Origin: Methanoregula sp.
Lineage (GTDB): Archaea; Halobacteriota; Methanomicrobia; Methanomicrobiales; Methanospirillaceae
NCBI GenBank assembly: GCA_030651815.1
Contig: JAUSBW010000241.1
Span: 1 to 48,025 of the forward strand
Reading direction: 5' to 3'
Length of the DNA stretch: 48,025 bases
Shown here: piece by piece, positions 27,910 through 45,886 of the stretch
How the letters are laid out: every line of letters begins with the position of its first letter
Numbering within the stretch: position 1 is the first letter of the stretch
Program-made: the position numbers and the translations under genes
Notes under the pieces: model-generated
The model's database searches: none
What the model was told of the DNA's origin: nothing
The model's input: the letters and a program-made list of their open reading frames with translations, nothing else

Positions 27910-28674
27910 ATGTCCGAGATTAGTATAATGACCCTCCCGCTGAAGTTTGTCAACCATAATATCGAAGATTTTGCCATTCAGGTAACATTCGATCCAATTG
28001 CGGGAGAAGGAAAGGTTGTGTACAATCTTTCATTGATAAAAAACGAAGATCTTGATTTTGCGGTATCCATACTTAAAGACGCGAACAAAACCGGTGTCAG
28101 TGTCAGCGGGATGGTTAAGTTCTTTTCTTCTGGAGAAAAGGTTGCAGATTTTGTGATCCCCAAAGGCTTAACCGGCATCTGCACGATGTGCAGCATCACC
28201 TTTGACGGGCTTTTGATCCGGCGGGGTATCCCGATCAATCCGATTGGTGGGGGGGTAGTAGAGATTGAGAACCGGACACCGATCCGCTTCACTCATATCA
28301 TCCTGTACGAGTACACCACAATCGATCCGCTGCAGGTGCTCATATCCCAGAAGACTACTTCAGTAACCAATGTGATGCGACTGGGGAGTGGCAACATTCT
28401 TGCAAATATCCGGGAGTTCCACATGGAAGCAGAGCCCCTTGTAGGAAGTGTGCTCGACGAACTTTCGAGCAGCAGCTACTCAGGTATCCTTGAAGTCGGC
28501 ATGCCTAACCTGTCACTCCTCGGCGTGCCCGTGAGCCCGCAGTACGTTGCCATTGCCGCTGTTGGCGGTACTAATCCTATGGCAGCGATCCGGGAAGGGG
28601 GACGATGGGTTCAGACGCAGGCAATGAAGGGTCTGATGGATATCCGGGAGATGGAAGAGATCAGGGATTATTAA
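27910..28674 (+). CDS. Stand-alone NrpR regulatory-domain (DUF128) protein
   Basis: 254 residues. Resembles the DUF128 effector domain of NrpR, the archaeal nitrogen regulator that senses 2-oxoglutarate: hydrophobic strands, GLTGICTMCSITFDGLLIRRGIP near the middle, GSGNILANIREFHMEA and GVPVSPQYVAIAAVGGTNPMAA near the C terminus. No winged-helix DNA-binding domain is encoded in front of it, so it may act as a partner or co-repressor subunit, or have another ligand. The start ATG follows the palindrome immediately, so the message is leaderless or nearly so. Family assignment is by motif memory, moderately sure. Confidence 0.7.
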   Translation: MSEISIMTLPLKFVNHNIEDFAIQVTFDPIAGEGKVVYNLSLIKNEDLDFAVSILKDANKTGVSVSGMVKFFSSGEKVADFVIPKGLTGICTMCSITFDGLLIRRGIPINPIGGGVVEIENRTPIRFTHIILYEYTTIDPLQVLISQKTTSVTNVMRLGSGNILANIREFHMEAEPLVGSVLDELSSSSYSGILEVGMPNLSLLGVPVSPQYVAIAAVGGTNPMAAIREGGRWVQTQAMKGLMDIREMEEIRDY

Positions 28675-28694: not shown

Positions 28695-29474
28695 TCATTC
28701 CGGCTTTTTTGCCCAGTCAACGATCAGGTTGTAATACCGTGAGAAGAACCTGACAAATCCTTCTGCTTCTGAGAAGAGCGCTACCGCATCCTCCTTTCCT
28801 GTTCCTAAAATGACCAGTACGCGCCGGTTATCGACAATGCAGATGCCCCCAGCCATCATGTCTTTCACTTTGTCGAGCTCGCGGGGCATCTCCGGGTGCT
28901 TCTTGACATAGACTCGCATTTTTCCCTTGTTGCCCCCCTCCCACTGGTGGGTGACAATCTCAACATCCGCACGCTCTGCCACAGCATCGAGCATCTCTTT
29001 AATTTCCGGTGAAATGATCTGGAGGTGGGCGATGATCCGGATGTCATGGCTGGCAGCGGTTATGATATCGGCAAGTTTCCTCCGGATGTTTTCGATACCA
29101 TAGACATTCCATATAAGTTCCTCGCTGCTCTGTTCATGGCTGATTCGTTCACTGTGGATCGCTGAGAGGATCTCACGGGCATCGGCAGCATCGCATTCGA
29201 TCCTGCTCATCATTATTGCAACCCCCTCCTCCGGAGAGAGAGCAGCAAACCGTTTGGGAGTTGAACGGGCTACGGATATGAGTTTTTTTTCCTGGAGTTG
29301 ATCGAGTACGGGATACACGGATGCGCGCGGGACGGTGGATATTTCATGGATCTCGCTGGCGGTCGCGCTTACCACTTTTAAAAGAGCAATATATACCAGC
29401 GCCTCGTATTTTGTCAAACCGAGTGATTTGAGGCAGTCAATAACCCTTGCATTGTCGGGTGTGGGGGATCTCAT
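28695..29474 (-). CDS. TrmB-family transcriptional regulator
   Basis: 259 residues. N-terminal winged helix: LKSLGLTKYEALVYIALLKVVSATASEIHEISTVPRASVYPVLDQLQEKKLISV, the classical TrmB signature, followed by ~175 residues of the C-terminal effector/dimerisation domain (IRIIAHLQIISPEIKEMLDAV, ICIVDNRRVLVILGTG). TrmB proteins bind palindromes at promoters and respond to small molecules, often sugars. The gene is divergent from a cell-surface-protein gene across 65 bp, where a perfect 8+8 palindrome lies (29507-29528). Confidence 0.9.
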   Translation of the reverse strand: MRSPTPDNARVIDCLKSLGLTKYEALVYIALLKVVSATASEIHEISTVPRASVYPVLDQLQEKKLISVARSTPKRFAALSPEEGVAIMMSRIECDAADAREILSAIHSERISHEQSSEELIWNVYGIENIRRKLADIITAASHDIRIIAHLQIISPEIKEMLDAVAERADVEIVTHQWEGGNKGKMRVYVKKHPEMPRELDKVKDMMAGGICIVDNRRVLVILGTGKEDAVALFSEAEGFVRFFSRYYNLIVDWAKKPE

Positions 29475-29506
29475 TTGAACATGACTTTATATTCTGCAAT
29501 ATTAAA

Positions 29507-29528
29507 TGTTGTTATAAAAATAACAACA
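29507..29528. promoter_or_regulatory. Candidate TrmB operator over the shared promoter
   Basis: TGTTGTTA (29507-29514), spacer TAAAAA, TAACAACA (29521-29528): a perfect 8+8 inverted repeat. Its centre contains the TTATAAAAA box for the plus-strand gene, ~24 bp before ATG 29540, which implies a leaderless transcript. It is ~45 bp from the minus-strand TrmB start. A dimeric regulator bound here would block TBP for the plus-strand gene and perhaps for itself. Confidence 0.65.
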
Positions 29529-29539
29529 CGTGATCACTG

Positions 29540-30828
29540 ATGGAATATCACAGATTTATCATTTTTGTCCTGGTCATGTTTCTGGGTTGCAGCATGCCGG
29601 TGATGGGTGTGGACACCTATCTGGGATCAAGCCCACGGATGTCAGCAGAACTTTCGGGTATCAATGAATTCACCCCGGGACAGGATGTTACCATAAATGT
29701 CATAGTACGGAACAGTGGAGTGAACGATTTAAAATTTGTCACCATCGGGACGATCGAACGCGATGATCTGCCGACCACTGCCAAGATGGTTATGGAGGGA
29801 CTCGGTTCTGGCAGTGCACCTGTCATAATCAAATCAGATCTTCAGAATGTCGGGGATATCAAGTCGCAGGGGCTTTTTACGGTTCCCATTTTAGCAAAAA
29901 TCCTGTCCAACGCCTCTATGGGGGAATACCAGATCCCTCTTACGATCCGGTACACCTACCTTGCATCTGCTGACAATTATGCGAATGACACCCTTCAGAA
30001 TTATTACCGTGTCGCTAGTGAGACGATTCCTCTCACCATACGGATCAAACCCCTGGTGAAGATCGATGTCATTGAAGCAGTGCCGGAAAACTTAAATGTT
30101 GGCAGTGGCGGATATCTCGATCTGAAGATACAAAATATCGGGTTTGAAGACGGGAAGAAAGCAACAGTAAAGATAATTCGTAACGGTCAGAGCCCGATCA
30201 TCCCCACTGACAGCAGCGTTTTTATTGGGGACTTCCCGCGCAATGGAACCGTTTCCTGCAGGTACAAAGTGGCAGTATCGGGCAATGCAGCACAACAGAC
30301 CTACCCGGTCGATGTTGCGGTCACCTATGAAAACCGTGGGGAGATATCGTTACATCTGCTACAGATACAGTAGGAATTCCTGTTGGCGGGAAACTAACTT
30401 TTTCGGTTACTTCGGATCCTGCCCGGGTCATTCCCGGCTCGGACACCGTGATTACCGTAGAATACAAAAATAACGGAGATATGACTGCATACCATTCACA
30501 GGCACGGATCTCCGCAGTCGATCCGTTTAAGAGTTCGGATGATACTTCCTATCTCGGGGATCTGAAACCCGGGGAACGGGCCACTGCCCGTTACCAGATA
30601 CATGCGGAGGATGCAGCGGAGATCAAGACCTATCTGCTGGATGCTGAGATACGGTACAGGGATGCACTCGACAACAGTCAGGTATCAGATACGTTCAAAG
30701 TACCGGTTTTAGTAGAGCCAAAACCTGCATCAAGTGAACTGGTATCGATGCTTCCCGCACTCGTTCTTATCGTAATTATCGGTATTGGCGCCGGGTATTA
30801 TTTACTTGTAATGAGAAAGAAGAAGTGA
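29540..30828 (+). pseudogene. Frameshifted COG1361-type cell-surface protein
   Basis: The first frame (29540-30373) gives a signal peptide, then repeated beta domains of the COG1361 (S-layer/NEW3-like) kind: ITPGQDVTINVIVRNSG-style segments (here FTPGQDVTINVIVRNSG, then LNVGSGGYLDLKIQNIGFEDG). At about 30340, in GTGGGGAGATATCG, the coding frame jumps. The second frame continues as IVTSATDTVGIPVGG...RVIPGSDTVITVEYKNNG to a C-terminal helix LPALVLIVIIGIGAGYYLLVM and an RKKK tail, stop at 30826-30828. Restoring the frame needs one extra base in the G run. The intact protein would be ~430 residues, exported and C-terminally membrane-anchored. Confidence 0.8.
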
Positions 30829-31535
30829 TGCTTGGATGGGATAGGGCTCTCCCTTTGCCCTCAGTCCGGACAATTGAGGAGATGCGGTCTGTCCTTGCCG
30901 ACCCTTCGTGTGAGGGCAGCACCCCCCTCTATTTTATGTACCGCGATCTGGCAAAGTCAGACGCGGACCGGCAATGGTTACACAGCCACTCGCTGCGCTA
31001 TGATCTCACAGTTATTCCACCCTGCACCCTTTGTGGTGAATGGGTGAAAACCAAGGGACATTATCACCCGCAAAAACCTTCCGGGATTGGGTATCCGGAA
31101 GTCTATGAAGTCTTAGAAGGCGAGGCTCTGTACCTGCTCCAGTCGCGGAGGCTGGATGATGTGGTGATGATCTCTGCAAGCACCGGAGATACCGTCATTA
31201 TCCCCCCGGATTATGGGCACATCTCCATCAATCCCTCTGCTGATAAGACCCTTGCCATGGCCAATATTGTCTCTACTGCGTTTGAGAGCGAGTACGGTGA
31301 ATACGAGACTCTCCACGGGGCAGCGTATTATGCGATGAGCAATGGAAACCTGAAGAAAAACCCCTATTACCCGAAGATACCTGAGGTGAGGTATCCCGGT
31401 TCACACTGGAGATCCGCTATGCACCGCTTCTGCACGGGGCCACTCTACACTCTTATCGGGAATGGGTCAGTACTCGGGTTCCTCAACTTCCCGGAAAAAT
31501 ACCCGGCTGTCTTTGCAGAGCTGCTAAAAGGTTAG
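30828..31535 (+). CDS. pgi: Glucose-6-phosphate isomerase, cupin type
   Basis: 235 residues from ATG 30828. Interconverts glucose 6-phosphate and fructose 6-phosphate. The cupin metal site is visible: KGHYHPQ (two His), then EVYEVLEGEA (Glu) and PPDYGHISIN (His). This archaeal family (GPI, pfam06560) is unrelated to the classical PGI. The start codon shares the A of the preceding stop (TGATG), so it is coupled to the frameshifted surface protein. Its last 53 bp overlap the end of nadE on the other strand. Confidence 0.88.
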   Translation: MLGWDRALPLPSVRTIEEMRSVLADPSCEGSTPLYFMYRDLAKSDADRQWLHSHSLRYDLTVIPPCTLCGEWVKTKGHYHPQKPSGIGYPEVYEVLEGEALYLLQSRRLDDVVMISASTGDTVIIPPDYGHISINPSADKTLAMANIVSTAFESEYGEYETLHGAAYYAMSNGNLKKNPYYPKIPEVRYPGSHWRSAMHRFCTGPLYTLIGNGSVLGFLNFPEKYPAVFAELLKG

Positions 31536-45728: not shown

Positions 45729-45886
45729 TCAAATCTCTCCTTATTGGTCTTTTTCTGGAAAAAAACCAGATTTCCGGGTTTTTTTCACGTCTCGAACTGC
45801 CGGCTGGATCGCCTACACATGAGAAGTACTCATTTTATTATACTAATACGCTATTAAACCCTCGTGTCATTCCGGGCAATACATTT

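Follow-up and report, generated by a model that had tools for sequence, protein, structure and literature searches.

A conserved palindrome between a TrmB-family gene and a surface-protein gene is a likely TrmB operator in Methanomicrobiales

Introduction

In Pyrococcus, TrmB acts as a repressor of malE by way of a palindrome located at the BRE/TATA box (PMC4158304). Relatives of TrmB can also activate, as TrmBL1/Tgr and halobacterial TrmB do when bound upstream of BRE/TATA (PMC4158304). The 139-aa MreA of Methanosarcina acetivorans is a global regulator for which no binding motif was identified (PMC4158304). Operators are known for few methanogen regulators. In the open-licence literature we found no earlier description of the site reported here, nor a studied TrmB in Methanomicrobiales, although this is weak evidence of absence.

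Here we describe a trmB gene and an adjacent palindrome, defined to the base pair, in a Methanoregula genome; the window that we analyzed is a stretch of 48,025 nucleotides. Like the TrmB of Pyrococcus furiosus and Thermococcus litoralis at malE, the regulator has a TrmB-family winged helix, and repression would be expected here too. However, the candidate operator is longer (22 bp) than, and different from, their TACT-N3-AGTA, the predicted targets are a surface protein and a glucose-6-phosphate isomerase (GPI) rather than a sugar transporter, the C-terminal sugar-binding part is missing, and the conserved tyrosine is followed by P55 instead of D51. TrmBL1/Tgr shares the family and a link to sugar metabolism, and autoregulation has been proposed for Tgr, but its regulon is global and includes many glycolytic genes, whereas one to few targets are predicted here; moreover, the Thermococcales glycolytic motif TATCAC-N5-GTGATA is unrelated in sequence to our palindrome, and the sugar-binding part is not shared. 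TrmBL2 of Thermococcales (264 aa) is of the same length class and, as here, combines a winged helix with a PLD-like domain and has no sugar-binding part, but it coats DNA as an abundant chromatin protein, whereas our protein is predicted to have one conserved, specific operator beside its target. MreA is likewise a TrmB-family regulator of a methanogen, but our protein matches its profile weakly.

Results

The earlier note on this DNA had claimed a palindrome at the promoter shared by the regulator and surface-protein genes. The sequence TGTTGTTATAAAAATAACAACA is indeed found exactly at 29507-29528, where it forms a 22-bp palindrome, TGTTGTTA-N6-TAACAACA, inside the 65-bp gap (29475-29539) between trmB and the surface-protein gene. 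Its 3′ end lies 11 bp before the surface-protein ATG at 29540, and its core, TATAAAAA, is centered about 24 bp upstream of that ATG. No other perfect copy occurs in the 3.28-Mb genome. Copies with one or two mismatches are not in excess in the same genome (14 vs 30 for a reversed control pattern), and we therefore rejected such low-mismatch sites as further targets. The whole window contains 29 overlapping 8+8 inverted repeats with spacers of 0-20, and when the AT-rich gap was shuffled with dinucleotides preserved, 248 of 5000 shuffles (5%) yielded an 8+8 repeat at any spacing and 20 of 5000 yielded one with a spacer of 6. As a bare sequence, the palindrome is thus only mildly surprising, and our judgment of it therefore rests on comparison across genomes. 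Elsewhere in the window, a terminator-like inverted repeat with a T-run (GAAAAAAACCAGATTTCCGGGTTTTTTTC) is present at 45758-45786.

We compared 50 orthologous loci from six families of Methanomicrobiales, with TrmB protein identity down to 40%. All 50 contain TGTTGTT-N8-AACAACA about 30 bp upstream of trmB, and the spacing of the 22-bp element is the same in every one. The 14 arm bases match perfectly in 42 loci, with one mismatch in seven and with three mismatches in one; 11 of the 14 positions are identical in all 50 loci, and the remaining three are identical in at least 45. Outside the palindrome, comparable conservation is found only on the trmB side, in an adjoining ATTTA and in an AT-rich, TATA-like stretch 15-20 bp further on. 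A second set comprised 80 loci from named genomes; it shares many genomes with the first and is not independent of it. Contig ends truncate four of these loci, and the site is present in all 76 untruncated ones; a direct scan found 72 perfect sites and three with one mismatch, the last locus being that of Methanoculleus chikugoensis. This locus is no real exception, since its palindrome has stayed with the surface gene and is now separated from trmB by about 1.3 kb of extra DNA. The repeat is thus conserved next to orthologs throughout the order, which was the check proposed in the earlier note.

Among close relatives, those with named records belong to Methanoregula and other Methanomicrobiales. 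Of 148 related genomes, 74 contain a perfect TGTTGTT-N8-AACAACA, vs one for the reversed control, and TrmB homologs, distant paralogs included, occur in 122 of 149 at E <= 0.001. We set aside the perfect matches in four genomes (G033, G034, G039, and G109), which fall within or close to unrelated genes, as apparent chance occurrences. Close orthologs of TrmB are confined to Methanomicrobiales in a sample of 295 genomes spread evenly over the phylum, and widening the search to class level added no other order. Outside the order, a distant homolog of TrmB (E ~1e-27) is found beside a related surface gene in three genomes of another family, without the palindrome; no palindrome was found at the distant homologs of G359, G434, and G457, which are neighbors of related surface genes. 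At three loci from another family of the phylum (L232, L233, and L234), the distant homolog is directly downstream of the related surface gene, without the palindrome, which suggests an older association between the TrmB and surface-protein families.

The position of the palindrome relative to the two promoters is consistent with a role in both. Across the 50 loci the spacer is conserved asymmetrically, reading TATAAnAA towards the surface gene, and this asymmetry bears out the earlier proposal that the palindrome overlaps the TATA box of that gene. We accordingly assign TATAAAAA (29513-29520, forward strand), which lies inside the palindrome, as the probable TATA-box-like core of the surface gene. 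On the other side, ATTTAATATT (29497-29506, reverse strand) abuts the palindrome and is the likely trmB TATA box, its ATTTA(A/T) being near-invariant in the 50 loci. The AT-rich stretch further on lies about 10-15 bp before the trmB start, a place where one would expect a promoter-proximal element. Among relatives, the distance from the palindrome to the surface-protein ATG is most often 11 bp.

The trmB gene (28695-29474, reverse strand) encodes a 259-aa TrmB-family regulator with a winged-helix DNA-binding domain and a PLD-like domain, as indicated by Pfam PF01978 and by matches of a structure model to PDB entries. The PF01978 winged helix scores 68.4 bits against a cut-off of 25.6 (4.9e-19), and the family trait of a palindrome at the promoter has its counterpart in the conserved 22-bp palindrome at both promoters, where binding is predicted. 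VPRASVY, the recognition helix, does not vary among the 50 orthologs, as would be expected with an unchanging operator, and its tyrosine Y54, likewise invariant in 50 of 50, aligns with Y50 of P. furiosus TrmB, the conserved tyrosine of DNA recognition. In the AlphaFold model (mean pLDDT 85), a long helix accompanies the winged helix and the PLD-like domain; the pTM of 0.51 makes the domain arrangement uncertain. The top Foldseek matches are to TrmBL2, over the whole length at 17-18% identity, whereas TrmB aligns only to residue ~241. Against the sugar-sensing TrmB and TrmBL1 profiles, the protein scores 46.8 bits (NF040851, cut-off 600) and 70.3 bits (NF047390, cut-off 650), and the matches stop at profile positions 158/338 and 161/341; by these profiles and the structure alignment, the C-terminal sugar-binding part of classical TrmB is absent. 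The protein also falls below the cut-offs of the equivalog profiles for TrmBL2 (NF041141, 21.8 bits vs 530) and MreA (NF053756, 23.3 bits vs 100).

The surface-protein gene (29540-30828, forward strand) encodes a protein of ~430 aa in orthologs, with a signal-like N terminus, CARDB/NEW3-like domains, and a C-terminal membrane anchor. Near 30338 (within 30295-30395) the gene is one base shorter than a 77%-identical ortholog, so that the open reading frame stops early at 30373 and resumes in another frame to 30828; this frameshift is either an assembly error or a recent mutation. The next gene (30825-31535, forward strand) encodes a cupin-type GPI (PF06560), and its start overlaps the surface-gene stop codon, which is the usual arrangement in relatives. 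The order trmB-surface-GPI-NAD-synthase is retained in most families of the order, and GPI is probably the co-regulated second gene of a surface operon. At two loci (L060 and L072) GPI lies apart from the surface gene and no further close copy of the site is found in the locus; GPI as an obligatory target is therefore not upheld, and its control may be incidental.

Six genomes from three other genera (G053, G062, G069, and G075 of one genus, G050, and G044) contain a further surface-gene copy that is unlinked to the first and has a palindrome of its own shortly before the ATG, with no trmB alongside. Since the site occurs at these genes without trmB, the comparison indicates that the surface promoter is a target in its own right. 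At other surface-protein homologs without trmB, the site is absent. One genus, g31, has further perfect palindromes (L109, L110, L243, and L244; L102 and L238), which lie upstream of a gene for an MMPL-like transporter and close to a putative stress-protein/anion-transporter operon; these genes are possible added members of the regulon.

Some Methanoregula-like genomes have no trmB but keep the surface-GPI operon in the same place. We scored eight of them (G001, G002, G009, G010, G017, G020, G027, and G036), some of which are incomplete drafts, although the locus itself is covered in each. Their sites have 3-7 mismatches of 14, compared with 0-1 of 14 in 49 of 50 trmB-bearing loci (rank test, 6e-9, phylogeny ignored). 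Where decayed trmB remnants persist (G015, G016, G051, and G072), the site has 0-2 mismatches. In a tree of the surface protein, the genomes without trmB occupy three distinct positions among relatives that have it, a pattern that suggests about three independent losses of trmB, each with erosion of the site. Repeated loss of a regulator followed by decay of its operator would amount to a natural experiment in regulatory evolution.

Discussion

We consider it highly probable that the palindrome is the operator of the adjacent TrmB, whose binding would repress the surface/GPI operon and autoregulate trmB. The local TrmB/surface-gene circuit put forward in the earlier note is well supported by the conservation of the site, by its erosion where trmB is absent but the surface-GPI operon persists, and by the sites that unlinked surface-gene copies bear before their ATG. 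A TrmB dimer would bind the TGTTGTT and AACAACA arms and keep TBP/TFB off both the surface/GPI and the trmB promoters, because the operator contains the surface TATA box and touches the likely trmB TATA box. The surface gene and, if it is co-transcribed, GPI would thereby be repressed, and trmB would limit its own expression. Release would come from a signal, probably a metabolic one; a sugar or a sugar phosphate may serve, the latter a guess prompted by the adjoining GPI.

Position alone is no proof of repression, and it is conceivable, though rather unlikely, that TrmB, once on the palindrome, is an activator of one of the two genes or serves chiefly to autoregulate trmB. TrmBL1/Tgr and halobacterial TrmB set a precedent for activation from sites upstream of BRE/TATA (PMC4158304). 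Our site is just upstream of the likely trmB TATA box, so trmB itself could be activated, but the surface-gene TATA box is inside the site rather than downstream of it, and unlinked surface paralogs that bear the site with no trmB nearby point to the surface promoter as a target.

Nor do the comparisons leave much room for readings without a TrmB operator. Back-to-back TATA/BRE core promoters of the divergent genes, with symmetry as a by-product, would explain why the spacer resembles a TATA box towards the surface gene and why the adjoining ATTTA fits a trmB TATA box, but we regard this as very improbable: the most conserved parts are the TGTTGTT/AACAACA arms, which are not TATA/BRE-like, which erode in trmB-less genomes whose surface operon persists, and which recur at unlinked surface genes with no divergent trmB. 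That a different regulator binds the palindrome and the linkage to trmB is incidental seems to us just as hard to sustain; the perfect g31 sites near MMPL-like and transporter genes, possibly another regulon, would suit it, but where trmB was lost, in separate lineages, the site has decayed, and otherwise site and trmB stand side by side across the order. A second regulator could share the site with TrmB.

If the palindrome is a TrmB operator, the operator and the small regulon are new, while the regulator belongs to a known TrmB kind. We advance more tentatively, as a possibility that we rate below even, an order-wide and nearly single-target TrmB circuit without the classical sugar pocket, which would link central sugar-phosphate metabolism, through GPI, to a membrane-anchored surface protein and sense through the PLD-like domain; if true, the TrmB family would have a new mode of sensing, and methanogens a new link between envelope and metabolism. 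The site is found in most families of Methanomicrobiales, including the cultured Methanoculleus and Methanogenium, and the tie between a conserved surface protein and a branch-point enzyme of sugar metabolism would give a first handle on the role of that protein.

One further neighbor accompanies this locus. A stand-alone NrpR regulatory-domain protein (PF01995), in which a DNA-binding domain was not detected, is encoded at 27910-28674, convergent to trmB, and its gene is kept beside trmB in most related loci and is also present in loci that have lost trmB.
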